Shown: one piece after another, positions 256 to 26,626 of the stretch | How the letters are laid out: each line of letters begins with the position of its first letter | Position numbering within the stretch: the first letter of the stretch is position 1 | DNA from: Methylococcaceae bacterium | Lineage (GTDB): Bacteria; Pseudomonadota; Gammaproteobacteria; Methylococcales; Methylomonadaceae | Direction: 5' to 3' | Assembly (NCBI GenBank): GCA_947505105.1 | Contig: CANNKG010000024.1 | Span: 1-41,694, forward strand | Length of the DNA stretch: 41,694 nucleotides | The notes under the pieces: model-generated | The model's database searches: none | What the model saw: only the letters and a program-made list of their open reading frames with translations | Told to the model about the DNA's origin: nothing | Position numbers and translations under genes: made by a program

Positions 256-693
256 ATGCACGCAGCTAAAGATCTCGCGACCAATGAAAGACGACAGCAG
301 ACTTATCAGTTAATTGCTGAATTAAAGTTAGAAAGACTTACAGTTTGGTCGTTGTATTCTGAAATAGCTAATCTCAAACCTTTTACCGTTCATCCTGATA
401 TTAAACAAAAGCTAAACCAATTTTTGCAATTATTGATTGATTATATATCATTAGGTCATTTTGGGGTTTACGAACGTGTGCTATCAGGCACAGAGCGACG
501 TGATCGGATTCTACTTGTGGCTTATGAAATTTTTCCTGACTTATCGATTACCACTCAGGTTGCTGAACTGTTTAACGAAAAGTATGAACATCTCGAAGAT
601 TTTGAAGATCTAGAAAAAGATTTATCGGTTTTAGGGGAGAATCTTGCTTTAAGAAGCGATCTTGAAGATAAATTATGCAAATTACTGATGTAA
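256..693 (+). CDS. rsd: Rsd/AlgQ family regulator of sigma-70
   Basis: This is a small helical protein of 145 residues, close to the usual 150-160 of Rsd/AlgQ. The segment around residues 60-75 (LIDYISLGHFGVYERVL) is the family's most conserved block, matching LVDYLSAGHFSIYERIL of E. coli Rsd as recalled. The C-terminal LxxLGENLALRSDLEDKL block also fits. Family members bind the housekeeping sigma factor and shift RNA polymerase towards alternative sigma factors, or act as AlgQ-type regulators. The start is supported by GGAG about eight bases upstream. The 3' end overlaps the convergent GGDEF-EAL gene by 12 bases, so the two transcripts share a short antisense tail. The family call is firm; the target sigma factor is inferred. 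Confidence 0.88.
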   Translation: MHAAKDLATNERRQQTYQLIAELKLERLTVWSLYSEIANLKPFTVHPDIKQKLNQFLQLLIDYISLGHFGVYERVLSGTERRDRILLVAYEIFPDLSITTQVAELFNEKYEHLEDFEDLEKDLSVLGENLALRSDLEDKLCKLLM

Positions 694-3063
694 TTTCTCA
701 CTCGTAAGATAATAACCTTGCAAAAATAGTTCGAAATCCCGTGCCGCTATAGGTTGACTCGCCAAGTATCCTTGAAAATAATCGCAAGCTTGGCTTTTTA
801 GAAAATCAAGTTGTTGCTTGGTTTCAACACCTTCAGCAACAACTTCCAGTCCCAAATTTTTAGCCATTGCAATAATGGTTGCAGCGATTTCCATATCATC
901 CCGTTGCTCTGGAATGTCATCAATAAAACTCTTATCAATTTTAAGCACATCTACCGGTAATTTTTTAAGATAAGCCAAAGAAGAATAGCCGGTTCCAAAA
1001 TCATCAATAGCAATATGAATATTTTTTTGATGTAATTTCTTCAAAATTTCAATGGCTTCATCTTCACGTTTCATCAATGTTCCTTCCGTGATTTCAAGTT
1101 CGAGAAGATGAGCAGGGAAATTAGTTTGCGCCAAAGTTTCAAGGACAATTTCGTTAATATCGCTATACAAAAACTGATGAGGAGAAACATTGACCGCAAG
1201 TTTTAAGGGAGGGTAACCCGCATCTAACCAGAATTTCCCCTGTCGACACGTCTCTTTTAGCACCCAATTACCAATTGCGGTAATTAATCCGGTTTCCTCA
1301 GCAATTGGGATGAAACGTAGCGGCATGATAAATTCACCGGAATGAGTCCGCCAACGCAATAAGGCTTCAGCGCCGATAATTTGAGCACTATTAATCGAAA
1401 TTTGAGGTTGATAATAGACCAACAATTCCTTATTTTCGATGGCTCTACGTAATCGGCTTTCGATGTCAATTCGTTCGCGCGCGGCGGTGGTCAACTCTTC
1501 CGAAAAATATTTGAAACGATTGCGACCTTCATTTTTTGCTTTATAGAGGGCAGTATCAGCCTGCTGTAATAAATCATCAGCAGAATGGCCATGAAGTGGA
1601 TAGACCGCGATGCCAATACTTACTCCAATACGCACATCGCTACCATTTTGCAACTGCCAAGATTCGCTTAGCGCGCTGATAATATTGGTCGCGACCAAAC
1701 CAGCAGCTTCCGGATGCGGTAAATCTTCGAGCAAAACCGTAAATTCGTCGCCGCCTAGCCGACATATCGTATCAACGCCTCGTAAGCGTAACGATAGGCG
1801 TTCGGCAACTTGTTGTAATAATTGATCTCCAGCCAAATGTCCGAAACTGTCATTAACATTTTTAAATCGGTCCAGATCAAGCATTAATACCGCAACGATT
1901 TTAGTATGCCGAATAGCCGATTCAAGGGCATGTTCTAAACGTGAGCGCAATAGCATCCGATTGGGCAACCCGGTTAGCGGGTCATGATGCGCGCGAAACT
2001 CCAATTCCATTTCAGACGCTTTAAGTTTGGAAATATCCGCAAAGACGCCGACATAATTAATAATTTGTTGGTTATTACCGCGTACCACACTAATGCTTAA
2101 TAATTCAGGGAAAATCGCCCCGCTCTTGCGTCGATTCCAGATTTCCCCTTGCCAGTGATCAGTACTATGAATAGCTTCCCACATATGCATGTAGAAATTT
2201 TTTTCATGGCGCCCGGATTGTAAGAATCGTGGGTTTTGACCAATAATGTCGAGTTCAGAGTAGCCAGTAATCTCGGAAAAAGCTTGATTCACTAGAATTA
2301 TCTGACAGTCAGCGCTCAAAATCATCACGCCTTCCCGAGTACTTTCAAATACCGCTGCGGCTTGTCGCAAGCGTTCCTCATTGAGTTTCAAATCGGAAAT
2401 ATCGGTCACGGTCCCCACATATCCGAGTAATTCGCCGGTATTATCCAATTCAGCTTCTGCCTGTCCAACCACCCAATGAATTCTGCCATCAGGCGTTTGA
2501 AACCGAAACTGCATACTAAAAAAACATTGCTTACGAATTGCCTCAAACCATGCGCTAGAAACCGACTCCCGATCTTCGGAGTAAACCGACTGAAGCCAAC
2601 CATTTCCTTCTGCGTCAAAATTTGATAAACCCGTGATCTGACTCCATTGTTCGTTGACGTATTGATAGTTCCCTTTCGCATCGGTTCTAAAAATTCCGAC
2701 CGGGGCAATCTTCGACAATGTTCGGAACATTACCTCACTTTCTTGCAGAGCGAGTTCGGTTTGTTTTCGATCGGTGATATCTCTAAAACCTATGACATAA
2801 GCTGATTGCCCATCCCATAATAGCGGTGTAGAGCGCATTTCAGCCCAAGCAATTCCGTGTTTTCTGATCAGGTTAATATCCTGGTAGGTGTTTTTATCAC
2901 CACCGACAGGAATTGCCAGCGACTTGCCCAAGAGACTACCTCGTCCTAATAATTGCTCAGCGGCTTGATTGGCATACAACACTAGACCCTGAGTATCGAC
3001 TACCAGGACTCCATCAGTGATGGTATTGAGAATCTGGTTAAGTTTTTCTAAGGTTTCTTTCAT
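682..3063 (-). CDS. PAS-PAS-PAS-GGDEF-EAL cyclic-di-GMP enzyme
   Basis: This is a soluble 793-residue signalling protein with no membrane segment or signal peptide. Three PAS domains (about 1-105, 105-232 and 233-352, the last two with PAC-type linkers) precede a GGDEF domain (about 353-520) and an EAL domain (about 530-785). The diguanylate cyclase motif is intact (GGDEF at 437-441), and an RxxD inhibitory site lies five residues upstream (R428 to D431). The phosphodiesterase motif is EALL at 566-569, and the ELEITEGTL, IDDFGTGYSSL and AEGVET blocks are also kept. Both activities are therefore possible. It is the last gene of a same-strand set behind the KaiB-type response regulator (85-base gap) and the hybrid kinase, so it is the likely output. 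No strong ribosome-binding site precedes the ATG. Confidence 0.93.
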   Translation of the reverse strand: MKETLEKLNQILNTITDGVLVVDTQGLVLYANQAAEQLLGRGSLLGKSLAIPVGGDKNTYQDINLIRKHGIAWAEMRSTPLLWDGQSAYVIGFRDITDRKQTELALQESEVMFRTLSKIAPVGIFRTDAKGNYQYVNEQWSQITGLSNFDAEGNGWLQSVYSEDRESVSSAWFEAIRKQCFFSMQFRFQTPDGRIHWVVGQAEAELDNTGELLGYVGTVTDISDLKLNEERLRQAAAVFESTREGVMILSADCQIILVNQAFSEITGYSELDIIGQNPRFLQSGRHEKNFYMHMWEAIHSTDHWQGEIWNRRKSGAIFPELLSISVVRGNNQQIINYVGVFADISKLKASEMELEFRAHHDPLTGLPNRMLLRSRLEHALESAIRHTKIVAVLMLDLDRFKNVNDSFGHLAGDQLLQQVAERLSLRLRGVDTICRLGGDEFTVLLEDLPHPEAAGLVATNIISALSESWQLQNGSDVRIGVSIGIAVYPLHGHSADDLLQQADTALYKAKNEGRNRFKYFSEELTTAARERIDIESRLRRAIENKELLVYYQPQISINSAQIIGAEALLRWRTHSGEFIMPLRFIPIAEETGLITAIGNWVLKETCRQGKFWLDAGYPPLKLAVNVSPHQFLYSDINEIVLETLAQTNFPAHLLELEITEGTLMKREDEAIEILKKLHQKNIHIAIDDFGTGYSSLAYLKKLPVDVLKIDKSFIDDIPEQRDDMEIAATIIAMAKNLGLEVVAEGVETKQQLDFLKSQACDYFQGYLASQPIAARDFELFLQGYYLTSEKLHQ

Positions 3064-3148: not shown

Positions 3149-3850
3149 TTAAATAATCACGGTTTGAATACCTGAAGCTTGAGTTTCGGTGGAAATGGCT
3201 TTAACTACCGACGATATTCGCGATAAATCACCCAATAATTTGAGTACCGGCTTAGGCAACTCCCGAACCAGCATCGGCGTTGCAAATATTTCTTTTTCAA
3301 GTGCCTTTTCAGGCGTTCCAAGTACCTCAACAACATCAAAAATCCAATAGCCAGGCTCGTAAAGACTAGTCAGCCTTTCAGATAATTGATCGACAAGTTG
3401 TCGAGTCTCCTTATTTAAGGATACCACGTATAAAGTAAGCACTAGCTTATGCTGAAAAGCATTCCGTTCTTCAAGTTGAGTTGGTGAGCGAGTCACCTGA
3501 GCAATATTGCGGATTTGTGACGAAGACAAGGGTTTGCTGGCCAACTCAAACTGAAGCCCTTCATCATGTGCAGCCTTTAGTTGCTCCATAAAGTCACTCG
3601 CAAAAGCGGTCACAATGTAGACACACAATGAATCATCTACCGCTTTTAAACGTCTTAACGTTTCTACACCGTCTATGCCAGGCATCCGCAAATCCAGAAA
3701 TATTAAATCCGGGCGTTCGCTCCGGACCATTTCGATACCTTGCAAACCATTCTCAGCTTCTCGCACAGTATAACCATCATCTTCGAGAATGAGTTTGAAT
3801 GCACCACGAACCGCTTGATCGTCATCAATTACCAACACGTTCTTTGCCAT
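3149..3850 (-). CDS. Response regulator with C-terminal KaiB-like domain
   Basis: A 233-residue protein. The frame opens further upstream, but the ATG at 3850 is chosen because AAAGG lies seven bases before it and the receiver domain starts right there. Residues 1-120 form a CheY-like receiver with acidic D9-D11, phospho-acceptor D53 (FLDLRMPG), T81 and K106-P107. Residues about 134-222 are not a DNA-binding domain. They match the thioredoxin-like KaiB/SasA-N fold, with LxLYVVS at the first strand, FDVVEVLGTPE in the middle and the diagnostic ATPMLVRELPKPVLKLLGDL at 190-209. KaiB is known as a clock protein that binds KaiC, and the same fold is the sensor end of SasA. Here it is the output of a phosphorylatable receiver. 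No kaiA or kaiC is in the window. The upstream neighbour is the hybrid histidine kinase (53-base gap) and the downstream one is GGDEF-EAL. The domain call rests on motif recognition; the function is inferred. Confidence 0.88.
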   Translation of the reverse strand: MAKNVLVIDDDQAVRGAFKLILEDDGYTVREAENGLQGIEMVRSERPDLIFLDLRMPGIDGVETLRRLKAVDDSLCVYIVTAFASDFMEQLKAAHDEGLQFELASKPLSSSQIRNIAQVTRSPTQLEERNAFQHKLVLTLYVVSLNKETRQLVDQLSERLTSLYEPGYWIFDVVEVLGTPEKALEKEIFATPMLVRELPKPVLKLLGDLSRISSVVKAISTETQASGIQTVII

Positions 3851-3903
3851 ATTTGTACCTTTCAAAAAACAACCTATGCTGCGTGTATACAACCATCAAA
3901 ATG

Positions 3904-6900
3904 TTAGTGAAGATTTTCCTTCCATAAACGAAATTTCAAACGCATACAACATCCATTTCCCGGCTGACTTTCCAGCATAATCGAGCCACCCACATCCTGC
4001 ATTAAACGACGGGTAACCGATAAACCCAGACCGGTGCCTTTGCCGGGTGGTTTTGTCGTGAAAAATGGGTCAAAAATCCGCTGTTGTATTTCCTGAGCAA
4101 TCCCTACACCATTATCGCAAACCATTAACTCCAGCCAGTCGTCAATAACCCTAGCATCCACAAGTATAGTCGGTTGTACGCAATCAGTAAGAGCATCACG
4201 GGCATTTATCAATAAATTCACCAGAATCTGTTGGAGAATATCTGAATTACAGGAGATTGCAGGCAAGCTATTTGGCAAGTTATTGCTTACCTGAATTTCG
4301 GTTTTGCGTAGTTCGCCTTCCAGTAGAAACAAGGTTTGCTGCAAAATATCCTGGATATTGCAACTTCCAGTAAGGTTGGATTTATTTCTGACGAAAACCA
4401 GCATATTACTGACAATTTTTTTAATCCGTTGAATTTGTTGCATCGCTTGAGTAAGAATCTCGCGAGATTTCTCATCCGGTGTGCGATCGCACACAAACTC
4501 TACAAAATTCATTACACCCATCAAAGGGTTATTGATCTCATGTGCCACCCCACCAACCAAGGTACCTAAAGCAGATAATTTTTCCATTTGCAGAAGATGT
4601 TCTTGATTTTCCTGAAGTTGCATATAGGCATGGCGCGTTTCTTCAAGTAAACGGGCATTTTCAAGCGAAATAGCCGCCTGAGAGCAGAGTAATTCGGTCA
4701 TATCAATCTTTTCCGAAGTAAAAACACCAACCGACAGCCTATTTTCGAGATACAAAACGCCAACCAATTGAGTTTGCTTGATCACCGGCAAACATAATAG
4801 TGAGCGTACGCCCAAATCTAATAACTCTTGATTTTCCTTAAACTCACCTTCCACGGAGGCATCCCGTAGCACGATTTTTTCTCGAGTTCGCAGCACGTAG
4901 TTCACGACCGCATGGCAGATATTGCTTGCTTCCTGTAATGGATAATTTTGCTTATGCACGATGATCTTTATTCCGGTGTGCCGCTCAGCGACAATCATTA
5001 TCTCCTTATCCTGAAGAATCAACAGGTAGCCATGCTGTGCGGATGAACTTTCCAGTACGACGGTCATAATCTTCTGTATCAATTCACTTAACTCAGTTTC
5101 GGCAGATAATGCCAAAGCTGATTTCATCAGGTAATTAACATCCAGATTAGGTAATGTCGAAAGCCCAAGTGACTCATCGAGTGGCACCAGATTGCCACCT
5201 AAGGCGTCAACTAAGGTAAACTCATGATAATGTTGCAAATTCTTGAGTTTACTGTCAGCCTTGGCAAGCGTATAAAAACGTCTCGCCTCCATGAAATAAA
5301 TTTCGGCCACGCCTAACTGCCCCTGAACAATCACCTCGGCCAGACATTCATATAAATGACCCGTTAACAATAGATAATCATAGGATTGCGCCAATCCAAT
5401 CGCATCCAGATATAAATTGCGCGCCTCGCGAAAATCGCCCTTACAACGAACCATTTCAGCATAAATAAACGCTACATAAGGCTGAAGTAAAGGCCCAAGC
5501 CGCGCCCATGTTTCAATTTTGGTCAGCAAGGGCTTCAGTTCACGCTCTAGTCTCGCGCAGTCCGATGGGTCGGCAAGGCGCAAATTATTAAGAATTCGGA
5601 ACACATACCATAGTCTTTTGAGCACGTTATCGGTCAAGCCGTGCAAAGAATGTTCGACCTGCTGTAACGCTTTAGCGGATTGCGCATAATGCCCCAGATA
5701 ATAGTGCGCAAAGCCCAACAAAACATAATAACTACCGGTCGCTGCCACATAATTATTTTCCTGCCATTGCGTCAGCGTGATCTGCATATCGCGCGGCTGA
5801 TCGCCCTGCATCGGTTCAACCCAACCGGCCAGGACGGCTTCAGCCAACCCTACCGAAAAAAGCAATTGATTTTTAGTCGAAAACTGCAAACATTCTGCAG
5901 CCGTTTCTGCCACCAGAGCCAAATTGTTGCCTTGGACGATTAGATTCCACATCAATGGCCCATAAGACAAACCCGCATTGTATAAATCACCGCAATTTTT
6001 TCCGCATTGAATCGCTCGATGACAATACTCGACAATTTCATGCGGATGACTGCGTGAATGCATATTGCACCAGACAATACCATTCATTCCGCGGGTAGCA
6101 CCAAACGTATTTGGATACATGGCACATAAATCGTGGGCTAAATCCTGATACCGAAACGCCAAATCGAATTCTTCATGCTCGCCCAGATTAAGCCCCATAA
6201 TTGAAAACGAATAAATCACCGATTCATCCATTCCCCCTTGAAGACAATGCAAGGTCGATTGAGCCGCCGATAAATAGAGTTGCGGGACCAAACCCGACAT
6301 GTACAAATCAGGAATCAACTCACTGTAAAACGCCAATTCGATCTTACTTTTTCGCTCATGGGTAAACGGCATATGTAAGATTTTCTGCCACACATCACCT
6401 TGTTCGGCAATTTTGTTCATCAATAACTGCATGCGTCGCTGCGCCTGTTCAGGATCGCTCGGAATTGCCTTGTTAAAATACCCTAAGCCCCGATTGGCCG
6501 TCAGAATGGCTTTATTAAAATTTCCAAATGACGAGAGTGATGTCGTTTGTTCGGCAAGCGCTTCAGCTTTATCTAAATCAGTTAAGGCATGCACAATCAA
6601 GTCATTCAGCAACGCTTCGGACGCCTCATAACGTCCGCACATCAGATCAGTTTTAGCTAGGCGCTGATAAATCCGATAAGTTAATTCATACGCAAATTCC
6701 CAGCAATCATGAGGCAGGATATCATGAGCTTTTCTGAAGAATTCGTTGGCCGCTTCCCCTGCCAGCGCTTCCAATGCTTTATTTCCGGCATGAAAATTAA
6801 TCTTTGCGAGTTGATAACATTGTTCAGGCTCAAGCTGAACCGGTTTACCCAAATTTAAATGCGCTGCAATCGTGAACAAATTGTCAAGCAATTCAAGATT

Positions 6901-9054
6901 ATCGTCGACGGGCTGATCCGCTAACAAACGTTTACCGATACGCCAATGGATGGCCGGACGTGCTTCCTTTTCTACTTGACGGAGCACCGACTCTTGAACA
7001 CGATCATGGACGAATTGTAAATCGGATTTATTTTCGAGCAACAATCCAAGACTCAATACTGATTTCAAAGCCTCAAACAGCTCATCAATACGAAAATCAA
7101 GCACCTGAGCCACTTCTTCGACTGTGAATCGATTCCCCATGCACGCACAATGATCGAGGATATGTAAAGTCGCAACCGGAAGTTTACGTACTTTTGAACT
7201 AAATAACTCGACAACTGATGCCGGAATATTGGTTTCACGAATTCGCTGCATATCCCAAAACCAATGCTGTTCGGCGTCGGTATGCAACAAATTTTCGTTA
7301 TACAACCAAGCTAAACTTTCACTTACGAAGAGTGGATTACCTTCGGTCAGATGCGCGATAAATTCGGCCAGATTTGCGGTGGTGTCTAAAGTCGAATCCA
7401 ATATGTAAGCGACCATTTCATGACAGGCAGCATCACTTAATGCCTCAAGACGAATTTCAACCAAGGGACCTTGGTAGCCCTGTACTTTTCGAATTAACTT
7501 GGTTAAAGGATGACTTGCATCGACTTCGTTATGCCGATAAGCCCCCATAAAAAACAAATACCGATGATCCTGATGATTGTTGAACAAGTTCTGTAAAAAA
7601 TCGAACGTTGCACTATCACACCATTGCAAATCATCAATGAATAACACCAGTGGATTTTCTTCGGTGGCCAGACAGCGTAAAAATCGTCCGAACAGATTGT
7701 TAAATCGGTTGCGTGCCTCAACAGGGGGTAAATTGGCAACTTCAGGTTGCGGGCCGACAATAAATTCCAGCTCGGGAATAACGTCGATCATCACGCGTCC
7801 ATTATGTTCCAGCGCGGCGATAATTTTGGCTCGCCAAAGTTTAACCTGATCATCACTTTCGGTCAGAAAGGTGCGCATCAGATTGCGTAACGCCTGAAGC
7901 AACGAACTATAAGGAATGTTTTTCTGATATTGATCAAATTTGCCTGAGGTAAAATAACCGCGATTTTTTACGAGCGGTTTCTGTAATTCTTGAATCAATC
8001 GAGTCTTGCCGATACCAGACAACCCCGAAATGAATACTGAGCGAAACTTACCTTGTATGACTTCGGCATAATGCAATTGAATCAACTCACTCTCTGCCTG
8101 GCGCCCCACCATTTTAGAAATAAATACAACACGGCGAATTCGGTCTTGCTGTCCAATCACAAAGTGTGAAATCGATCCATTTTGGGTGAATTCCTGCTGA
8201 CACCGCATAAAATCAGCCAATAACCCGGAAGCATTCTGGTAACGTTTTTCAGGTTGTTTACTCATCAACTGCGCAATAATATCGGCCAATACTTCCGGGA
8301 TCCCCGGGTTAAGCTCATCCACTCGAACTGCTTCCTCCGCTAGATGTGAATGAATTAATTCAAGAGGATCAGTCGAAAAAAACGGTAAACGTCCGGAAAG
8401 CAATTCATAACAAACAATGCCGAGAGAATATAAGTCAGTCGAAAAATCAACGCGGTAATTAATACGACCAGTTTGTTCGGGAGAAGTGTACGCTAACGTG
8501 TTACGCACAAATTCAGCATCGTAAATAAAATGACTGACATCCCGAATATCCAGCGGAGTAATAAAATCGGTTAGTTTCAGCAAATAAGTGCCGGGTTGCA
8601 ACAGAATATTATGCGGCTTGACCCCGCCATGGGTAATGCCGGCGTCGTGTACCACCTGAAGAATATCGGCCAGGGTCACCGCCAACATCAAAAAATCTTC
8701 CAAATGCAAAGGCCGCTGCTGTTCACGCCAACGATTCAAAGAATGGCCATCAAACCAAGGTTGAACGATAAATTGTCGATTCCGATCAGATTCCAAAGAC
8801 AGCGGCGTAAGGACACGCGGGTCATGCAAGACTTTCAATCGCTCAATCTTTTGACGTAAATGCCGAGATTGCTCATCTTGGGTCGCGAGCAGCTTGAGAA
8901 TTTTGATCATTAAAGGTTGGCTCGGACTATGTTTGTAGAGCCCCTTATAAACAGTCGCCTGCAAACTTTCTCCCAGCATCTCCAAAAGCAGATAATTTTC
9001 CAAGTGAGGTATCTCAATCGTTGAAGCAGCATAGGTTAAGCTTTGCCCGGGCAT
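3904..9054 (-). CDS. Ser/Thr kinase-like/AAA ATPase/GAF/histidine kinase hybrid
   Basis: A 1716-residue cytoplasmic multidomain sensor of the type common in cyanobacteria and some proteobacteria. Order: Ser/Thr kinase-like domain (about 20-290, with the ATP lysine K51); AAA/ORC-type ATPase (P-loop GLSGIGKT at 344-351, Walker B LFIDDLQW near 471-478); a long helical TPR-like region (about 700-1280); GAF (about 1290-1450); and a HisKA/HATPase core with phospho-acceptor H1505 in AHEINNPL, an N box at LLINARDAL, DNGVGI near 1647 and GKGTGLGLS near 1671. The kinase-like domain is unusual: the HRD catalytic triad reads HGG (142-144) and DFG reads DFI (163-165), so phosphotransfer from this part is doubtful. 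The start has AGAGAGG about eight bases upstream. The next gene is the KaiB-type regulator, its probable phospho-partner. Confidence 0.92.
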   Translation of the reverse strand: MPGQSLTYAASTIEIPHLENYLLLEMLGESLQATVYKGLYKHSPSQPLMIKILKLLATQDEQSRHLRQKIERLKVLHDPRVLTPLSLESDRNRQFIVQPWFDGHSLNRWREQQRPLHLEDFLMLAVTLADILQVVHDAGITHGGVKPHNILLQPGTYLLKLTDFITPLDIRDVSHFIYDAEFVRNTLAYTSPEQTGRINYRVDFSTDLYSLGIVCYELLSGRLPFFSTDPLELIHSHLAEEAVRVDELNPGIPEVLADIIAQLMSKQPEKRYQNASGLLADFMRCQQEFTQNGSISHFVIGQQDRIRRVVFISKMVGRQAESELIQLHYAEVIQGKFRSVFISGLSGIGKTRLIQELQKPLVKNRGYFTSGKFDQYQKNIPYSSLLQALRNLMRTFLTESDDQVKLWRAKIIAALEHNGRVMIDVIPELEFIVGPQPEVANLPPVEARNRFNNLFGRFLRCLATEENPLVLFIDDLQWCDSATFDFLQNLFNNHQDHRYLFFMGAYRHNEVDASHPLTKLIRKVQGYQGPLVEIRLEALSDAACHEMVAYILDSTLDTTANLAEFIAHLTEGNPLFVSESLAWLYNENLLHTDAEQHWFWDMQRIRETNIPASVVELFSSKVRKLPVATLHILDHCACMGNRFTVEEVAQVLDFRIDELFEALKSVLSLGLLLENKSDLQFVHDRVQESVLRQVEKEARPAIHWRIGKRLLADQPVDDNLELLDNLFTIAAHLNLGKPVQLEPEQCYQLAKINFHAGNKALEALAGEAANEFFRKAHDILPHDCWEFAYELTYRIYQRLAKTDLMCGRYEASEALLNDLIVHALTDLDKAEALAEQTTSLSSFGNFNKAILTANRGLGYFNKAIPSDPEQAQRRMQLLMNKIAEQGDVWQKILHMPFTHERKSKIELAFYSELIPDLYMSGLVPQLYLSAAQSTLHCLQGGMDESVIYSFSIMGLNLGEHEEFDLAFRYQDLAHDLCAMYPNTFGATRGMNGIVWCNMHSRSHPHEIVEYCHRAIQCGKNCGDLYNAGLSYGPLMWNLIVQGNNLALVAETAAECLQFSTKNQLLFSVGLAEAVLAGWVEPMQGDQPRDMQITLTQWQENNYVAATGSYYVLLGFAHYYLGHYAQSAKALQQVEHSLHGLTDNVLKRLWYVFRILNNLRLADPSDCARLERELKPLLTKIETWARLGPLLQPYVAFIYAEMVRCKGDFREARNLYLDAIGLAQSYDYLLLTGHLYECLAEVIVQGQLGVAEIYFMEARRFYTLAKADSKLKNLQHYHEFTLVDALGGNLVPLDESLGLSTLPNLDVNYLMKSALALSAETELSELIQKIMTVVLESSSAQHGYLLILQDKEIMIVAERHTGIKIIVHKQNYPLQEASNICHAVVNYVLRTREKIVLRDASVEGEFKENQELLDLGVRSLLCLPVIKQTQLVGVLYLENRLSVGVFTSEKIDMTELLCSQAAISLENARLLEETRHAYMQLQENQEHLLQMEKLSALGTLVGGVAHEINNPLMGVMNFVEFVCDRTPDEKSREILTQAMQQIQRIKKIVSNMLVFVRNKSNLTGSCNIQDILQQTLFLLEGELRKTEIQVSNNLPNSLPAISCNSDILQQILVNLLINARDALTDCVQPTILVDARVIDDWLELMVCDNGVGIAQEIQQRIFDPFFTTKPPGKGTGLGLSVTRRLMQDVGGSIMLESQPGNGCCMRLKFRLWKENLH

Positions 9055-9582: not shown

Positions 9583-10926
9583 CTAACGGCGATAGTCTTC
9601 CAGAACTGCAGCTATGGTAAGTTCATTTTTAGCCAGGGGTTTTATGATGGTAAGCGCATCTGAAAGGATTCGTGACGCTTTAGGTAAGTTCAGAATATTT
9701 TGACGCATTAAATCGTAGGCGCCAAAAACTGCAACCGCGAAAAATTGTTTGATGAGCGAATAATGATTTCGATTCAAACCGGCCAAAATCGCAATCGATT
9801 CTTGAGCGTTAACTCCACCTCTCTGCAGATATTTAAATACCGCAGTTTTGAGCAAGGCATTTGACATTACGCCATAGAGAGCGTTAGCAAGGATATTCAA
9901 GTTAGCATTTGCGTGTTGTCGATCACGGTAATACGCTTCGATTTTCTCATGGATCAAATCGGTATTTTTGAAATCCGGCATCGCTAATAAATGCGCACTC
10001 AATATTTCGATATCCGAGAATACTGCCGTTAGGCCACCTCCAGTTAACGGATGACGCATATTCAAGGCATCACCGAGCATCACTGCACCCTTACGTATAA
10101 TCGGCTTTGCCGCCATGTAGTGATTGGGCATAACCTTAAACTGCCCTTCCTCGAGCGCCTGCTGGTAACTAGTGCGCATACCTTCTGGAATGAACGGCGT
10201 AACATTTGCTTCAAGATGGGCCTGCAGTAACAATTTTTTCGGTGGGTGCTCCCCCGGAAAATCGATCAAAATTCTGACTTCATTGCTGGAAATCGGATAA
10301 CAAATGAACGGTGTGGGTCCTGACAAGAAAACATGCCCATGTTTTGGAAACGGCATATCGCAGTCTTTTAAAATCAGACCGATAAAATAAGATGTGACGG
10401 TTTTTTCGTTTTTACTAAGACTTTCTCTGAAATTAGAAAAGAACCCATCACTGGTAATGGTTAAAGGCGCATGAATGGATTTTATTTCCAAAGTCGTGCT
10501 ATCCCGGTAGCTCACACCAATAATTTCATTCTGGTCATTTTCGAGTAGCTGTAATGCTTTGCCGTGTATCTGCGTCACCGTATCACTTTGCAGCGCAGAT
10601 GCTCTGATTTTTTGCAAAAAACGGCCATTATGCAAACCCATACCCCGATAGTTCTGCGGATAGGGTATGGTTATTTTTTCGTCGTCTTTTAATAAAGCAT
10701 AACCTTCAACGGGTTGTGCATCAAAGTCATCTAGTAAAGATCTAAGTCCCATTTTTTCAAGGGACAAGACGGCCCCTGGTTGCAACAATTCACCAACAAT
10801 GCGCTTTTTCTCCTTATAGCAATGATCGATTAAGGCAATTTTAATGCCTTTGGGAGCTAGATAAGCAGCGATAGTAGCGCCCGCCATGCCGGCGCCGATA
10901 ATACAAATGTCGAATTCTGATTTCAT
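9583..10926 (-). CDS. Squalene monooxygenase (squalene epoxidase)
   Basis: FAD-dependent enzyme of 447 residues that turns squalene into 2,3-oxidosqualene, the oxygen-requiring entry step of sterol synthesis. The N-terminal dinucleotide-binding motif is GAGMAG (11-16). The squalene epoxidase signatures GELLQPG (45-51), SDGFFSNFR and GDALNMRHPLTGGG (285-298) are all present. The eukaryotic N-terminal membrane anchor is absent, as expected for bacterial forms; some hydrophobicity near the C terminus may give membrane association. It is the last gene of the minus-strand sterol set, 46 bases after the oxidosqualene cyclase stop. The ribosome-binding site is weak, which would fit translation within a polycistronic message. 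Identification is very firm from the motifs and the neighbouring cyclase. Confidence 0.95.
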   Translation of the reverse strand: MKSEFDICIIGAGMAGATIAAYLAPKGIKIALIDHCYKEKKRIVGELLQPGAVLSLEKMGLRSLLDDFDAQPVEGYALLKDDEKITIPYPQNYRGMGLHNGRFLQKIRASALQSDTVTQIHGKALQLLENDQNEIIGVSYRDSTTLEIKSIHAPLTITSDGFFSNFRESLSKNEKTVTSYFIGLILKDCDMPFPKHGHVFLSGPTPFICYPISSNEVRILIDFPGEHPPKKLLLQAHLEANVTPFIPEGMRTSYQQALEEGQFKVMPNHYMAAKPIIRKGAVMLGDALNMRHPLTGGGLTAVFSDIEILSAHLLAMPDFKNTDLIHEKIEAYYRDRQHANANLNILANALYGVMSNALLKTAVFKYLQRGGVNAQESIAILAGLNRNHYSLIKQFFAVAVFGAYDLMRQNILNLPKASRILSDALTIIKPLAKNELTIAAVLEDYRR

Positions 10927-10972
10927 ATTAAGCTAGTTGTCTCAAACTCTTTAAACAGGGTTGATTCATTTA

Positions 10973-13216
10973 TCATTTCTGAGTAGATTGCCTATGGTAT
11001 CGACTTAACGCCCAAATAGGAAAACTATTCCTATAATTAGCGTAGGTTATCATGCAGTTATAATTAAAAACGCCGGAAATACTTTCCTGCGGCCAATCAC
11101 CAAGGGGGGTTTGTCTGCTCAAAAGCAGATCGGTACCGGCCCTAATGACTCTCTTCTCGGAAAAATCAGCGGCCATCAACGCCAACAATGCCCAAGCGGT
11201 ATTTACGACTTGAGAAGTAGAAGCTTCGGTATAAACTAATTTGGAACAAGATTCGAAGGTTTCACCCCAACCGCCATCCTGCTTCTGCTTACTTACCAAA
11301 AATTTACACGCTTTGCTTGTGCTATCCGCGATAACCCCATCTTCAATATACTGCTTGCCTTTGGACTTAGCAATTGCTTCAACAGCAAACCAAGTCGCAT
11401 AAGTGAAACAAACCGCCCAGCCACCATACCACGAACCATCAGGCTTTTGCTGCTTTAAAATAAATTCGAGCCCGGCAATGATTGCTTGGCGTATTTTATC
11501 GTTTTTATAGTCAGGATAGATTTCCTGAATTTCTATTAACGCAATAACACACGCCGCCGTACATTCCGTCCATGAATAGTCGATCATTATATCGGCAAAT
11601 ACTTCCGAGGGATTAAGTTTTTCAAGCCATTTAGGCGCACGCTGCAGTTCATAGGTTGCCCAACCGCCATCGGCGTTCTGGTACGAAAGAATTATGTCAA
11701 CCGCCTGTTCGATTCGTTGAGTGTTAATAACAGGGGTTAACAATCCCGACTGATGAATAGCTAGGGTAGCACTTAACCCTTCGGCGGTGCAATCGGCCAC
11801 TGGCCATCCGTTTTCCGGCGTTGAGAAAGGCCAGCTACCGATCATCGGATGCCGAAAAAATTCAGCGTGAGTTGGATGTTCGGCCTTGATTTGACAATAA
11901 TCGATGAAGCGATAACTGTTAGCGATTGTTTCAGGAAATAATTTACCTAAGTCACTTTCGAGCATCGCGCGGGTCGCGAAGGCCACATCCCAAAGCTGTG
12001 AACCATTGTAACCGCTCATTTTCATGCCATCTTCGGCAACCCACAAATAATCGTACCAGCGTGCGACATGCTTTTTAAATTGCGCGGAATCTTTGCCGTA
12101 AGCATGCCAAATACAAATGGAATTGATCGCTTTATTGACCGGGCCGATATCGACATAGTCGGTTTGAGCGTCTTCAGCATTCAGATAGCGCAGAATGAAT
12201 GCGATCGCTTTTTTGCGCAACCAAGTCCAGGCGAATTTTTCATAATTATTGGTGAAAAAATTCATCCATTTCAACACCCCGGATGGCGTAGTGTAACGAT
12301 CTTTTTCACATAAGGCGTTGCGTTGTTTTGACCAGTCGATCGTTGCGAAATCTTCAGTATAGAGTTCTTCTCGTAACGACAAAATCAAGTCGTTTACCGG
12401 CACACTGATACGTTCAGCATAGCAGTAGGCCATCGGCAGATATACCATGCGAGTATGACACCAATAACGCCAAGGATGCACCGGTAACCATTTCGGAAAT
12501 AACCACATTTCAGGGAACAGGCTGTTAAAACCTTCCCAATGATACAAATTCAAAACCGAAAGATAAAACTTACCCCATGAAGGAATGCCGGTCGCACCGC
12601 CATTGGCTTTGATCCAGGCGCTAGCCTTGACCATTCGCTCATCGTCTTTGCCAACGCCCAGAATGCGTAATGAAACATATTGCATAACCGTACCGAACAT
12701 CGTCGAGTCACCTTCGATATGCATGCCCCAACCAGAATCCGAATTTTGATGATTAAATAAATACAGTTTCATCATTTCCCGATGCGCTTTCGGAAATGGC
12801 GTCTCGGAAATATAAGACGCAATTAAAATGCCTGGCAACAAAAACAACGGCCCACCGTAATCTCCAGGCCAGTGGCCATCTTTACTTTGGAGAGCGGAAA
12901 AGTAGTTAATACCTTTGACTAACCCGTCAACAATTTTTTGGGCTTCAGGAGATTCGGCTTGGGGAATTGGCCCACTAAATTCCTTGAATTGAGCGTTGAT
13001 AGCACGATGTCTGAATACCTGATCCGCAGAATTTGGATTCAAGGTTTTATCAAATTTAAAATCTTCCGCAAATTGGGCAATTTCGTGTTCGGTAATCTGC
13101 TCGACATTTTGCAAATGAGCGTCGATATCATTCGAGGTTGGCTTAAAAGCCCAAATGTGTCTACCTTGTTCGGTAAGCAGTTGCCAGTTTTTCCAGGAAG
13201 ATTTAATATTCAGCAT
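10973..13216 (-). CDS. osc: Oxidosqualene cyclase (lanosterol synthase type)
   Basis: A 747-residue triterpene cyclase, the normal length for the eukaryotic-type family, that folds 2,3-oxidosqualene into a tetracyclic sterol. The catalytic motif is DCTAE with D475, which separates it from squalene-hopene cyclases (DDTA). Several QW repeats are visible (QNADGGW, QKPDGSWYGGW, QKQDGGW). Residues that steer product choice read Y403, N469 and V473, corresponding to Y410, H477 and I481 of plant cycloartenol synthase. Asn and Val at the last two positions are, from memory of mutagenesis work, the lanosterol-forming combination, so lanosterol is the likely product. It sits between the NTF2-like gene (30 bases) and squalene monooxygenase (46 bases), indicating one transcript. 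Confidence 0.95.
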   Translation of the reverse strand: MLNIKSSWKNWQLLTEQGRHIWAFKPTSNDIDAHLQNVEQITEHEIAQFAEDFKFDKTLNPNSADQVFRHRAINAQFKEFSGPIPQAESPEAQKIVDGLVKGINYFSALQSKDGHWPGDYGGPLFLLPGILIASYISETPFPKAHREMMKLYLFNHQNSDSGWGMHIEGDSTMFGTVMQYVSLRILGVGKDDERMVKASAWIKANGGATGIPSWGKFYLSVLNLYHWEGFNSLFPEMWLFPKWLPVHPWRYWCHTRMVYLPMAYCYAERISVPVNDLILSLREELYTEDFATIDWSKQRNALCEKDRYTTPSGVLKWMNFFTNNYEKFAWTWLRKKAIAFILRYLNAEDAQTDYVDIGPVNKAINSICIWHAYGKDSAQFKKHVARWYDYLWVAEDGMKMSGYNGSQLWDVAFATRAMLESDLGKLFPETIANSYRFIDYCQIKAEHPTHAEFFRHPMIGSWPFSTPENGWPVADCTAEGLSATLAIHQSGLLTPVINTQRIEQAVDIILSYQNADGGWATYELQRAPKWLEKLNPSEVFADIMIDYSWTECTAACVIALIEIQEIYPDYKNDKIRQAIIAGLEFILKQQKPDGSWYGGWAVCFTYATWFAVEAIAKSKGKQYIEDGVIADSTSKACKFLVSKQKQDGGWGETFESCSKLVYTEASTSQVVNTAWALLALMAADFSEKRVIRAGTDLLLSRQTPLGDWPQESISGVFNYNCMITYANYRNSFPIWALSRYHRQSTQK

Positions 13217-13246
13217 AGATTTTTATTGAGGGCCCTAATTTGTTAG

Positions 13247-13849
13247 TTATTGATTTAACAACGCAATTCGCACCATCGCGATAAAACCTTTGAGTCTTTT
13301 CCAAACGCTCGGCTGTTCACGTAATCGCTCGTGACCCGGGAGCAGTTGCCCTTTCGCTAATTTACCGATTTTCCGTTTGACCGCAGGATCAAGTTTACCA
13401 TCGGCAGCAAGTTCGAAAAACAAGGCTTTCACGTTGCCTAAGTCAAAAAAATCTCGTTGCCACTCCCATTTAAAATTTCCGCCATAACGAAACCAGGAAC
13501 CGCCGATGCCGGCGACTTGATAATGGCTACCGTCTTCGCGCAAAGCAGGCGAAACCTGATTCCATAAACCAATCACCTCGCCTTGCTTTTCATCGATCAA
13601 AATTCGGTGGTAGGGATAGCGCCATTCTTCAAAACCTTCCATTTGCACACCCAAAGCCCATTCTTCAATCTCTTTGCGGCTGCGGGCAACGAATTCTTCA
13701 TTTGGACCGATGTTCCAACGATATTCAGCATCATCTGTGTACATCGCACCCAGATATTTGGGCCAATTACCTTCTTTTTCTGCGTCACGGTTGGCTTGCA
13801 ACCAACGCTCAACCATTTCTTCAAGTTCTGCTCGGGGGTAGGCGGCCAT
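13247..13849 (-). CDS. NTF2/SnoaL-like protein in the sterol operon
   Basis: A 200-residue soluble protein without signal peptide. The N-terminal 140 residues have the cone-like NTF2/SnoaL pattern: a helical start (ELEEMVERWLQANRDAEKE), MYTDDAEYRWNIGPNEEFVARSRKEI, then strand-rich stretches ending in GIGGSWFRYGGNFKWEWQRDF. Such folds include ketosteroid isomerase, polyketide cyclases and hydrolases with a hydrophobic pocket. The C-terminal 60 residues are basic and partly hydrophobic. The gene lies 20 bases after CYP51-ferredoxin and 30 before the cyclase, so it is very probably co-transcribed with them. A role in sterol processing, such as double-bond isomerisation or substrate handling, is inferred from context and fold only. 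No catalytic residue can be assigned with confidence. Confidence 0.75.
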   Translation of the reverse strand: MAAYPRAELEEMVERWLQANRDAEKEGNWPKYLGAMYTDDAEYRWNIGPNEEFVARSRKEIEEWALGVQMEGFEEWRYPYHRILIDEKQGEVIGLWNQVSPALREDGSHYQVAGIGGSWFRYGGNFKWEWQRDFFDLGNVKALFFELAADGKLDPAVKRKIGKLAKGQLLPGHERLREQPSVWKRLKGFIAMVRIALLNQ

Positions 13850-13869
13850 TCTGTTTCTCTATACGACGG

Positions 13870-15501
13870 TTATTTAAGTTGAATTTTGATTGCTTTACTC
13901 GGGCAATATTTTTCGGCTTGTTGCGCTTGATTAAGTAAATCGAGTGATGGGTTATCCTGTAAGAGCGTGACATTACCGGCATCATCGACCTGAAACAACT
14001 CAGGTGCCTCGGTCATACAGGTCGCATGACCCTGACAAAGCTCGCGATCCAAAATGATCGCAAAGCCGGGAACTGTCGATTTTTTTTCCTGACTAGCAAT
14101 TGTTGTCGCTTCAGCGACGGCGGCTTTTAATTCCTTACGTTTGACATAACGAACCCGGCAAGGTGACAACGGCTGGACAACCATTTGAGTAAAGTCGTCC
14201 TGATAGGCATCTTTGTCGTTAATCAATTCGAAGGTATAGCGCCGCAATAGAATGCTGAAAATCGCTTTTAGCTGCAACATCGCAAAGGCATTGCCACTGC
14301 ATTTGTGCTTTCCGCCACCGAAAGCGATCCAGCTAAACGGCTTGGCGTCTTCCTGACGAGTTTCTGAATAGCGTTCAGGGTCGAATTTATCTGGATTAGG
14401 GAATACTTCGGCAATGCGATGTGAAACGCGTGGCGAAGCGCACACGTATTTTCCTGCCTTAACCGTATAATCTTTGAAATGGAAGTCCTGCATCACTTTG
14501 CGGATTAAAAAGATCAGCGGTGGATGCAACCGCAACACTTCTTTAATGACATTTTCGAGGATCGGAATTTCGCGCAAGGATTGGAAAGTGACTTCACCAT
14601 CCACACCAAAATGCTGATCCAGCTCACTTAACACCAAGTCCATATATTCAGGTCTACGCGCCAATTCGAGTAACGTCCAGGCAGCGGTTCCGGCCGTGGT
14701 ATGGTGGCCCGCGAAGATAGTACCGATTAACATACCGGTAATTTCGTGCGCCGATAAATGACTGCCATCGTCATATTTAGCTTCAATCAACAATTGAAAA
14801 GCGTCTTCACTCTTTTCGGCTTTCTGCGCACGTTTAGCAATAATTCCGGTGACGAGTTCCTGTAAGCGAGCGCGCGCCTTATCCCGACGACGAAATACCG
14901 GCAAGGGCAAATAAGGAAACACAAATGCCAAGGGATTCACCCCTTTTTCAAGGTCATGGTAAATTTTTGCAAATTCCTCATTCAGTTCATAACGAAACTC
15001 ATCGCCTAACAAGCAATGGCTGGAGGTATAAATGGTCAGTTCCTTCATAAACTCCAGCAAATCAATTTCACCGGTCTCGCCCCAATTAGCGATCATTTGC
15101 TCGACTTCCTGCACAATCACCTGAGCATAACCGCGCATCGGCTTATCGCGCAAGACCGGCATCAGCATTTTAAGTTGCTGGTCTTTTTTATGCGGCGGCG
15201 CATCAAAAACCACGCCTTTACCGAAAATAGGCGTCATTATTTTATAAGCTTGGCTTTGATCAAGTTGGGCATCGGGCGCACGAAAAAATGCTTCGTTCGC
15301 TTCGGGACCGGTCATTAGCACCATTTGTTGATGAAACATCCGAAACTCGCCGATTTCGCCGAGGGTATTCCGCAGTTTCACCATGTATTCAAACGGATTT
15401 TTACCGAATTCGAGCATGTGCCCCAACAGCGGCAAAGCGCCGAGCATTATAGGAGGTTCCTTGCCAGAAGCAACGATTTTTTCAAGATTCGTCGTATTCA
15501 T
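13870..15501 (-). CDS. cyp51: CYP51 sterol 14-alpha-demethylase fused to ferredoxin
   Basis: A 543-residue fusion. Residues 1-460 are a cytochrome P450 of the CYP51 family: the I-helix AGHHTT motif at 264-269, ExxR at 321-324 and the heme-binding loop FGGGKHKCSG with C401. After an Ala/Glu/Lys-rich linker (about 458-476), residues 477-543 form a small ferredoxin with C489, C495 and C533-Pro, the spacing of [3Fe-4S] P450 partners. The enzyme removes the 14-alpha-methyl group of lanosterol using oxygen, with the attached ferredoxin feeding electrons; a separate reductase must exist elsewhere. The same fusion is known from Methylococcus capsulatus. No N-terminal anchor is present, unlike eukaryotic CYP51. 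The AT-rich 211 bases upstream separate it from the DHCR24-like gene and could carry a second promoter. Confidence 0.96.
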   Translation of the reverse strand: MNTTNLEKIVASGKEPPIMLGALPLLGHMLEFGKNPFEYMVKLRNTLGEIGEFRMFHQQMVLMTGPEANEAFFRAPDAQLDQSQAYKIMTPIFGKGVVFDAPPHKKDQQLKMLMPVLRDKPMRGYAQVIVQEVEQMIANWGETGEIDLLEFMKELTIYTSSHCLLGDEFRYELNEEFAKIYHDLEKGVNPLAFVFPYLPLPVFRRRDKARARLQELVTGIIAKRAQKAEKSEDAFQLLIEAKYDDGSHLSAHEITGMLIGTIFAGHHTTAGTAAWTLLELARRPEYMDLVLSELDQHFGVDGEVTFQSLREIPILENVIKEVLRLHPPLIFLIRKVMQDFHFKDYTVKAGKYVCASPRVSHRIAEVFPNPDKFDPERYSETRQEDAKPFSWIAFGGGKHKCSGNAFAMLQLKAIFSILLRRYTFELINDKDAYQDDFTQMVVQPLSPCRVRYVKRKELKAAVAEATTIASQEKKSTVPGFAIILDRELCQGHATCMTEAPELFQVDDAGNVTLLQDNPSLDLLNQAQQAEKYCPSKAIKIQLK

Positions 15502-15712
15502 AATTCGATTCGGTTAGGTGAGCAAAATGAAGCACACAAAATTATAAGCTCATTTGTTTCAATGAAATATAAGCATTTGATTTATATAGATAGATACAAA
15601 CTATCTTGTAATTCTACACTGTGCTTGAATAATATACAAAATTTTCTACATTTCAAAGCGCCATACCGAAATTAGACAAGCACTGATTATGGATCGCCTC
15701 AATAGCGATTGA

Positions 15713-17284
15713 TTAAGTCCGCTTTGCTAATTTCTTCATCTCGATCGGCGCGACTCTACCTTTTGAAGAAACTTTGTCGTACACCTCCTCAAAGGCTTGT
15801 CGGCAATAAGGCAATTGCTCACGTAAACGGTCATAGTCGCTATGATCGAACATGGTTCTGAAATCTTCACTACTCATAAAAGTTCTCGCATAGAGCGCCT
15901 GATAACCCTGTTGCTCGATCACGAATTTTTCGAGTAAAGGCAGCGCGACAGCATTATCGAAATTCGCTTTGCCAGGGGTACCATAAGCACCAATATCCAC
16001 GTACATTTCATCAACAGTACCATCTTTCATAATTAACGGATGGACAAACCCGGGTTGTCTACCATGGTCTTTAATCGCCATGGGGGAAAGCCATAACGGA
16101 TATAAGCGGAAATGCTCGTCAAAATAGGCAATCGATTGCTTCAGATGACGAATCGGCACCAACATATCCTGCACGACATGATAGCGCTCCCTAAGCCGCT
16201 GAGTAGTCTGCGTCTCGGTATATTTTAATAGTTCAATACTCGGCGGCAAAGCCCAACCGAGTAAGGTGCGATATAGCGGGTTGTTGCCGAATGGAATAAT
16301 TTCCTCCATCGCCCAGAAATAGCTACGGGTATGGCGATGAAAATAATCTCGGACCGGCACATATTCGACGCCCTGCTTCTTCTGAGTCAAATAGGTCTGA
16401 GCATGTTTATAAAACCACGGTTTATACCAGCGGCCAATGGCGTTGATCACACCATCAGCGCCCACCTCATCACTAAATCGACCGCGCATAATAACCGCCT
16501 GATCACTGCTATACATCAAACCTTCAACAAAATCGTTGTGATCAGTATCACGACTCGCCTGCTCGAAAACCTCGACCATGCTATCGAGGGAAAAGACTGG
16601 CTGATACTCAAGCCGAACATACTTTTTAACCGGAATAATGTTCAATTCGGCAGCGACTAAAAAGCCTAAAGTACCATGACTCCAGGGGATCTGGTAAAAC
16701 AGCTCGGCGTTTTCCGTCGGACTGCATTTAACCAATTTACCCTCGGCGGTAACAATTTCAAAGGCAGCGCAAATATGCTGGAACAATCCGTACTTATGGC
16801 TGCTGGTTTCAACCCCAAAACCCATGATCAAACCGCCGACGGTCAAGGTATCTAATTCCGGCACAACCGGCAAGGTCCAACCACGCGAGATGAGGCTGCG
16901 TGAAATCTGTCCCATCGTTGCCAAAGGCTCCAAACGGACAATACGGCGCTGTTCGTCAATTTCAAGAATATCGTATAACCCGACCTCAATCTTACGAGCA
17001 GATAATTTGTATTTCGGAACTAACTCGCTCATGGTTTTCCAGCCTGATCTGGCCGTACAGAGTTTTTGTTCTGCACCTTGTTGTTGCCAGTCGAGGATTT
17101 GGCCGATCACAGCAGCAACCCTAGCATCATGTTTGGCTGGAGCGCTATTAAAGCGAAAAGCAAGCCAATTACGGATAGTATCAAAGGCACCATAACCAGC
17201 TGAAATGGGCAAGAGAAAAAGGGTGGCAAAAATACCGCGATAATGAGTGAGGATATGTTCAAACACTTGCTCGAGTTTTGTCAT
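15713..17284 (-). CDS. DHCR24-like FAD-dependent sterol delta-24 reductase
   Basis: A 523-residue flavoprotein, nearly the length of human DHCR24 (516). Similarity to the vertebrate enzyme, as recalled, runs over the whole length: an N-terminal hydrophobic anchor (residues about 14-42), RPGW/RSGW-type start of the FAD domain, TVGGLIMGFGVETSSHKYG, GLFQHIC, ENAELFYQIPWSHGTLGFLV, RDYFHRHTRSYFW, IIPFGNNPLYR, HHVVQDML-like block, and the C-terminal FxxMFDHSDYDRLREQL. Known members reduce the C24-C25 double bond of sterol side chains with NADPH. It leads the minus-strand sterol set; AGGA lies about eleven bases before the ATG. Other FAD-linked oxidases of the PCMH type are possible, but the long matching blocks and the operon make sterol reductase by far the best call. 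Confidence 0.92.
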   Translation of the reverse strand: MTKLEQVFEHILTHYRGIFATLFLLPISAGYGAFDTIRNWLAFRFNSAPAKHDARVAAVIGQILDWQQQGAEQKLCTARSGWKTMSELVPKYKLSARKIEVGLYDILEIDEQRRIVRLEPLATMGQISRSLISRGWTLPVVPELDTLTVGGLIMGFGVETSSHKYGLFQHICAAFEIVTAEGKLVKCSPTENAELFYQIPWSHGTLGFLVAAELNIIPVKKYVRLEYQPVFSLDSMVEVFEQASRDTDHNDFVEGLMYSSDQAVIMRGRFSDEVGADGVINAIGRWYKPWFYKHAQTYLTQKKQGVEYVPVRDYFHRHTRSYFWAMEEIIPFGNNPLYRTLLGWALPPSIELLKYTETQTTQRLRERYHVVQDMLVPIRHLKQSIAYFDEHFRLYPLWLSPMAIKDHGRQPGFVHPLIMKDGTVDEMYVDIGAYGTPGKANFDNAVALPLLEKFVIEQQGYQALYARTFMSSEDFRTMFDHSDYDRLREQLPYCRQAFEEVYDKVSSKGRVAPIEMKKLAKRT

Positions 17285-26570: not shown

Positions 26571-26588
26571 TTGTTCGATAGCCTGCAG

Positions 26589-26613
26589 GGTGGTTTCGCG
26601 ACAGCAAACCACC
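26589..26613. repeat. Inverted repeat at the start of the HEPN-like gene
   Basis: Arms GGTGGTTT (26589-26596) and AAACCACC (26606-26613) around a 9-base loop. It sits just before the preferred ATG of the HEPN-like gene and 13 bases from the next palindrome. It could form a hairpin in the mRNA leader. Confidence 0.5.
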
Positions 26614-26626
26614 AATTGACTCGATT

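Follow-up and report, generated by a model that had tools for sequence, protein, structure and literature searches.

In the genome of a methanotrophic Methylococcaceae bacterium we found a response regulator, REC-KaiB, in which a receiver domain is joined to a domain of the KaiB family. Its gene lies in a stretch of 41,694 nucleotides, which was analysed as a whole and is called the window here. The receiver and KaiB belong to a recurring set that consists of a kinase core, a receiver, KaiB and one subfamily of PAS domains. The best explanation, to which we give about an even chance, is a KaiC-free two-component switch in which the KaiB domain signals to the PAS protein. The evidence is computational and concerns the identity of the domains, the gene order, the lack of a general need for KaiC or an AAA module, the linkage of KaiB to the PAS subfamily, and the loss of two fold-switch residues. 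The features of the window that belong to the set are the following.

682-3063, minus strand: PAS-PAS-PAS-GGDEF-EAL protein, 793 aa (Pfam; first part matched in 24 of 26 loci)
2761-3051, minus strand: first PAS domain of this protein, called kPAS here for KaiB-linked PAS (profile scans, alignments)
3149-3850, minus strand: REC-KaiB response regulator, 233 aa (ORF list, Pfam; fusion in 26 of 151 genomes of the family)
3185-3451, minus strand: KaiB domain, approximately residues 134-222 (Pfam, PDB profile, residue alignment)
3506-3838, minus strand: receiver domain, residues 5-115, with the phospho-acceptor D53 (Pfam, active-site residues, invariant D53 and K106)
3904-9054, minus strand: histidine kinase, 1716 aa (Pfam; kinase match in 25 of 26 loci)

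The receiver and its KaiB domain

The sequence-only reading gave no strand for the gene. It is read from the minus strand, from an ATG at 3850 to a stop at 3149, and an AGG-type ribosome-binding site, recognised by eye, precedes the ATG. The mechanical ORF call uses an alternative TTG start at 3892, which makes REC-KaiB 14 aa longer. Residues 5-115 match the Response_reg family of Pfam with an E-value of 1.6e-24 (86.6 bits, cut-off 30.2). The active site of the receiver is complete in the window protein (D9, D10, D53, T81 and K106), which confirms the CheY-type receiver with D53, T81 and K106 that had been proposed from the letters. D53 and K106 are invariant in 24 aligned sequences, the window included. 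HisKA and HATPase domains are absent from the 233-aa protein according to Pfam.

The KaiB-like domain that was expected after the receiver is also present: residues 143-211 match PF07689 with an E-value of 3.4e-9, and the score of 36.7 bits exceeds the curated cut-off of 27. A profile of 24 KaiB regions, which included the window and also a more KaiB-like anammox sequence, matched solved KaiB chains at E-values from 2e-24 to 1e-13, the N-terminal domain of SasA at 1e-4 and thioredoxin at 0.006. Thus, the domain is KaiB and not just thioredoxin-like. Of the earlier description as KaiB/SasA-N-like, the KaiB/thioredoxin type stands, and KaiB (2e-24) is nearer than SasA (1e-4). This assignment rests on the Pfam match and on the profile search against solved structures. 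When the whole protein served as a single query against solved structures, the best 60 of 275 matches were all receivers, and NCBIfam gave no model at its cut-off among the best 25 matches per protein.

Structure models added little. The full-length model of REC-KaiB had a pLDDT of 77.8 and a pTM of 0.56, and only receivers were among its best 50 PDB matches listed. The KaiB domain modelled alone was poor (pLDDT 66); its top five PDB matches were KaiB, KaiB in Kai complexes and SasA, with Z of 6.2-6.7, which is weak (below 8) and tied with thioredoxin (5.9). The AF2 model has the thioredoxin-like order of elements, which we do not read as evidence of the fold state, and comparison against a viral library was of no help. 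Residues 125-233 were checked for a fold unrelated to KaiB and thioredoxin; by Pfam and the PDB profile the fold is not an unrelated one, the support from structure being weak.

The fusion, with KaiB confirmed, was found in 26 of 151 sampled genomes of the family (loci L009-L034). It is retained at 49-77% identity in the 25 genomes other than that of the window, which places it beyond chance. Named carriers include at least Methylomonas (among them Methylomonas sp. LW13, locus L042), Methylobacter and other Methylococcaceae. From 60 down to 57% identity, the matches listed also hold fusions in records labelled as uncultured beta-proteobacterium, as Gallionella and as unassigned proteobacterium; a distant one, at 39%, comes from Candidatus Anammoxibacter. 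In a sample of 398 genomes drawn from the whole phylum, no match reached the strength of a fusion except the window's own (156 bits; the next 80). Named loci L039-L057 partly duplicate the sampled genomes (L010 and L039 lie on contigs of equal length, 246035), and counts are therefore taken from the 26 loci of the latter. We thinned 139 KaiB domains to 99 for a tree, in which one group (100/98) unites 17 proteobacterial REC-KaiB domains with the unfused KaiB of locus L153. The tree has few columns, 40 open forks and an unsettled bootstrap; the Planctomycetota fusions fall elsewhere in it, in poorly settled places, and we rely on the proteobacterial grouping only.

In four loci (L153, L060, L278 and L272) the receiver and KaiB are separate neighbouring genes, and elsewhere they are fused. 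That the same two domains are fused in some loci and close neighbours in others argues that they act together. Locus L153 also contains a hybrid ORF (L153:7597-8106), in which the first half of KaiB is joined to a receiver; an intact KaiB follows it, and the arrangement suggests a tandem duplication combined with a deletion.

Among 48 distinct receivers that score at least 100 bits with a profile of the REC-KaiB receiver, 43 either share a protein with KaiB or have it no more than 1 kb away, and 29 of 151 distinct receivers below 100 bits are also within 1 kb of a KaiB gene. A KaiB-linked receiver subfamily is thus partly borne out, as low-scoring ordinary receivers adjoin KaiB too: the module typically has this special type of receiver, which is not a hallmark of KaiB loci generally. 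The remaining five high-scoring receivers (L059, L061, L062, L154 and L155; 138-156 bits) stand alone, with no KaiB gene in their examined loci. Stand-alone receivers of this class speak for a rather unlikely alternative, in which the receiver alone works as a phosphate sink or shuttle and the KaiB domain merely stabilises or dimerises the protein. The conservation of the KaiB part argues against it. In 33 aligned fusions, the mean column identity is 0.79 for KaiB and 0.81 for the receiver, about the same degree of conservation, and a hand-chosen segment in the middle of KaiB reaches 0.85, slightly above the receiver.

The neighbouring genes and a recurrent PAS domain

Upstream of REC-KaiB, on the same strand and after a gap of 53 bp, lies the kinase gene. 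Its product has the domain order Pkinase, AAA_16, GAF, HisKA and HATPase_c, with the H-box HEINNP at residue 1505. Downstream, after a gap of 85 bp, lies the gene of the PAS-GGDEF-EAL protein, in which both the GGDEF and the EAL motif are present. A histidine kinase match adjoins REC-KaiB in 25 of the 26 loci, so the same fusion does stand beside similar kinases in other Methylococcales, as had been suspected; the one exception is L027, and the match is also absent at the named locus L052. At least the first part of the PAS protein is matched beside REC-KaiB in 24 of 26 loci. The two exceptions are L030 and L032, where longer stretches were examined and have no PAS gene; listed by genome, REC-KaiB has no kPAS gene beside it in G070 and G087, and outside the 26 loci none adjoins it at L045 and L058. 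A scan for promoters and terminators found sites no more frequently than in shuffled sequence, and the operon is thus deduced from the gene order and its conservation.

Other genes of the window were noted in passing. Upstream of the module, a sterol-type gene cluster occupies 9583-17284 of the minus strand, with a squalene epoxidase, a squalene-hopene-type cyclase, a P450 with a 4Fe-4S ferredoxin domain and a FAD-binding protein. An Rsd/AlgQ-type sigma-70 regulator (256-693, plus strand) is convergent with the PAS-GGDEF-EAL gene, with an end overlap of 12 bp. A 323-aa leucine-rich-repeat protein (18729-19700, plus strand) has a start that resembles a signal peptide by eye, and a 712-aa protein (24477-26615, minus strand) has no Pfam match at an E-value of 1e-4.

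The sequence-only reading overlooked the downstream PAS protein, the first PAS of which is tied closely to the KaiB genes of the family. PAS domains that end in RDITERK are common. The kPAS domain is strongly conserved (mean column identity of 71% over 14 sequences), and the outputs that follow it vary: GGDEF-EAL (window, L048 and L156), HK-REC (L047 and L049) or HD (L054). We trained a profile on these 14 domains and ran it on 7510 ORFs of the loci, a set biased towards KaiB loci. The top rank was taken by 33 REC-KaiB-linked domains with 142-162 bits, of which 14 are the training set or copies of it. They were followed by the PAS beside the unfused receiver and KaiB in L153 (97 bits), the REC-KaiB-linked domain of G114 (95 bits), four PAS-GGDEF proteins directly after kaiBC (53-54 bits) and one PAS beside an unfused alphaproteobacterial pair (33 bits). 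The best other PAS scored 22 bits.

A scan of the whole genomes is less biased than the scan of loci. In the 151 genomes of the family it gave 34 kPAS matches at an E-value of 1e-6, with at most 33 candidates scored per genome, so that weak unlinked matches may be missed. It turned out that kPAS adjoins a KaiB gene or its remnant in 31 of the 34 matches: 24 lie beside REC-KaiB, one beside a separate KaiB, four just after kaiBC, and two (G011 and G078) beside a 28-residue remnant of the REC-KaiB C-terminus. The other three are weak (47, 32 and 31 bits in G133, G085 and G026), with no KaiB within the 13-18 kb around them. By genome, kPAS occurs in 24 of 26 carriers of the fusion and in 8 of 125 others (Fisher p 6.5e-19, uncorrected for relatedness). 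This linkage within the family may reflect inheritance and not selection.

The set recurs in a second phylum. KaiB was found in 15 of 246 Planctomycetota genomes, and one anammox genome (G155, Candidatus Anammoxibacter; L272-L277 and L251) has eight KaiB domains, four of them fused to a receiver. Two Planctomycetota genomes have a similar set with the receiver and KaiB as separate genes. The order in both, G155 (L272) and G795 (L278), is kinase, receiver, KaiB and then a kPAS-like protein, and G155 also has a fused copy. The kPAS-like domains of L272 and L278 score 62 and 53 bits, and the other PAS domains of these proteins 8 bits or none. The genome-wide count covers the family of the window, and the matches of 33-62 bits in other groups are therefore weaker evidence.

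KaiC and the kinase as possible partners

The absence of kaiC nearby, noted earlier, holds within the window; the same genome carries a free kaiB-kaiC operon on another contig (G000:C113). This operon (L119:6564-10054) is followed by a PAS-GGDEF gene, the first PAS of which is kPAS-like. The earlier suggestion of a KaiC-like partner elsewhere in the genome fails as a general rule. KaiC is absent from 16 of the 26 carrier genomes, 15 of which are at least 90% complete. A KaiC match was found in 10 carriers, the window's genome and nine others, compared to 28 of 125 non-carriers (p 0.13). In the 16 negative carriers the best PF06745 stretch scores 51 bits, or 72 together with its neighbours in frame. 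The two halves of KaiC of the window's genome score 244 and 152 bits, and the first half of KaiC in seven Planctomycetota genomes 185-259 bits. Strong PF06745 matches in the negative carriers lie mostly in frames of 456-487 aa, which from this length we regard as RadA and DnaB; the frames that hold weaker matches measure about 350 or 515-535 aa. On this co-occurrence, KaiC as an obligatory partner is rejected.

Of the 15 Planctomycetota genomes with KaiB, 9 were examined for KaiC. G795, which has the unfused set, has no KaiC, and all seven of the other KaiB-bearing genomes tested there have it. G155 gave no match to KaiC of the window's genome; one 1122-aa protein of this anammox genome has a KaiC-family ATPase domain (81.8 bits), and a 435-aa anammox match considered as KaiC is DnaB. 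No KaiC match was found in the genome of L060. A Thiohalocapsa genome (G158) has a KaiC-like match, and its examined locus holds a stand-alone receiver only.

KaiC binding is possible in the window's own genome, since that genome has KaiC. REC-KaiB could then be a SasA-like reader of the clock: the KaiB domain would dock on KaiC, and the receiver would link the kinase signal to a KaiBC timer or compete with free KaiB. The domain is of the KaiB type and ten carriers have KaiC. As would suit such a reader, the positions that carry the lateral KaiB-KaiB charges in T. elongatus KaiB are changed here, and SasA does not conserve them either. Nevertheless, we consider it quite unlikely. Most carriers do without KaiC, their best PF06745 score (51 bits, 72 in frame) is far from 244 bits, and KaiC is not significantly commoner in carriers than in other genomes. 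In addition, position 58 of T. elongatus KaiB, by our placement part of the KaiC-binding helix or close to it, holds D, E or N in all 34 proteobacterial fusions, where other KaiB mostly have Q, K, R or G.

The AAA module of the adjacent kinase had been named as the other candidate partner. As a rule it is rejected, because it is missing from several sister loci: Pfam finds no AAA or Pkinase in the kinases of L054, L057, L153, L156/G114, L278 and L272. These kinases have other sensors, namely PAS only (L054 and L057), ETR1_N plus PAS (L153), DUF4118 plus PAS (L156/G114), Cache-HAMP-PAS (L278) and HAMP-PAS (L272). The part common to the kinases that adjoin the receiver and KaiB is HisKA with HATPase_c only. 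A feedback in which the KaiB domain acts back on the AAA or Ser/Thr-kinase part of the neighbouring kinase would agree with the adjacency of the kinase in 25 of 26 loci. It is very unlikely, given the loci where these parts are missing and a similar large kinase in G085 without REC-KaiB. This 1741-aa protein (L281:6251-14023) is a homologue of the window's kinase with 53% identity. The next protein in G085 combines a receiver with a stretch that resembles the window's PAS-GGDEF-EAL protein, and it has no KaiB. Thus, the kinase family can work without REC-KaiB, and the receiver of G085 seems to be linked straight to the output, for which KaiB would serve as the bridge in the window.

It is hardly credible that the fusion is an artefact or a decayed gene with no function: the remnants in G011 and G078 and the hybrid KaiB-N/REC frame in L153 point that way, but 26 genomes keep an open frame, uninterrupted by stops, at 49-77% identity, and active-site and KaiB residues in it do not vary.

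Fold-switch residues and a proposed switch

We counted residues in distinct domains of at least 70 residues, with the numbering of T. elongatus KaiB. Gly89 is found in none of the 34 proteobacterial REC-KaiB domains (26 Ala, 5 Ser, 2 Thr and 1 Ile) and in 61 of 74 other proteobacterial KaiB. Asp91 is likewise found in none of the 34 (33 Thr and 1 Ser) and in 51 of the 74 others. In the window the equivalents are A218 and S220. Position 84 is Pro, Ser or His in REC-KaiB and Glu or Asp in 60 of 74 other KaiB. Gly89 is not a strict feature of clock KaiB, as 13 of the 74 others also lack it, including that of L140 beside a KaiC gene. Among four Planctomycetota fusions, one keeps Gly89 and Asp91, and of the three KaiB prolines only P63 is kept.

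The G89A/D91R substitution is reported to make KaiB mainly fold-switched, with the equilibrium constant rising from 0.08 to 6.7 in favour of that form (PMC8059507). Glu84 and Asp91 are described as lateral KaiB-KaiB contacts on KaiC (PMC6769508). From the replacement of Gly89, Asp91 and position 84, together with these data, the REC-KaiB domain is predicted to be mainly fold-switched (thioredoxin-like) and to form no KaiB ring; position 91 in the fusions is Thr (33 of 34) and not Arg as in the published mutant. All three prolines (63, 70 and 72; P192, P199 and P201 in the window) are kept in 34 of 34 proteobacterial fusions, and some fold switching may therefore remain. Two of these three prolines are proposed to have arisen together with fold switching (PMC11551320).

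The KaiC-free switch that we favour would work as follows. The neighbouring kinase (3904-9054) would phosphorylate D53 of the receiver. The phosphorylation state of D53 may alter the docking of the receiver on the attached KaiB and so expose or hide it; such gating, which the sequence-only reading had suggested, is plausible. The KaiB domain would be mainly in the thioredoxin-like, partner-binding form and would not be a slow fold-switcher like clock KaiB. Once exposed, it would most likely bind kPAS at the start of the downstream protein and tune its output, which would be cyclic-di-GMP turnover in the window and, in relatives, that of a hybrid kinase or of an HD-type hydrolase. We infer the direction of the KaiB effect on the output and, from the linkage, the contact of KaiB with kPAS. 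A precedent for the pairing of the two domains is the pseudo-receiver of CikA, which is reported to bind KaiB (PMC12632262).

Clock KaiB (T. elongatus 2QKE; fold-switched 5JYT and 5JWQ) shares with REC-KaiB the PF07689 family, the three fold-switch prolines and the core ATP-x-L...G(D/N)L. REC-KaiB differs from it in the fused receiver, in the absence of KaiC from 16 of 26 carriers and in the loss of Gly89 and Asp91. In comparison with the T. elongatus protein, contact positions 26, 84 and 91 are replaced and position 58 is D, E or N. SasA (1T4Y and 6X61) likewise has a KaiB/thioredoxin-like domain within a two-component protein; however, it is a histidine kinase that reads KaiC, and here the KaiB domain is on a response regulator. 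In KaiA3 of Synechocystis a receiver is also joined to a Kai fold, but as described its output is helical, of the KaiA type, and acts on KaiC3 with KaiB3, whereas that of REC-KaiB is of the KaiB type, with KaiC often absent (PMC11372060). Legionella KaiB (4KUN), crystallised in the fold-switched form, is said to be non-circadian and implicated in stress responses; unlike REC-KaiB, it is described as a free protein without a receiver (PMC10808063). In published kaiBC operons that are followed by an HK or GGDEF/EAL gene, KaiB stands beside similar signalling genes, but these operons, as reported, contain KaiC (PMC3164672); four kaiBC operons of the family carry kPAS.

The fusion had been put forward as an undescribed signalling module, and in the open-access literature that was searched we found no description of a receiver-KaiB fusion. 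One publication notes that KaiB sequences of excessive length were discarded or cut down to the KaiB domain (PMC10808063); such fusions may thus have been seen but left undescribed. Outside Cyanobacteria, SasA homologues are reported to lack the KaiB-like domain (PMC5520375), and the module bears on how Kai signals leave the core there. Tentatively, the partnership of receiver and KaiB could be a separate, widespread use of KaiB, perhaps as old as the KaiC clock. The receiver, KaiB and kPAS would then form a KaiC-free phospho-signalling cassette in Proteobacteria and Planctomycetota, with the kaiBC-kPAS operons as a related branch. Research on KaiB has been concerned almost entirely with its circadian role, in which it switches folds and binds KaiC. 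With KaiC often absent and two fold-switch residues naturally replaced, REC-KaiB offers a test of a clock-free role of KaiB and of its other partners. Besides its part in the clock, KaiB seems to have another use in everyday signalling of bacteria.
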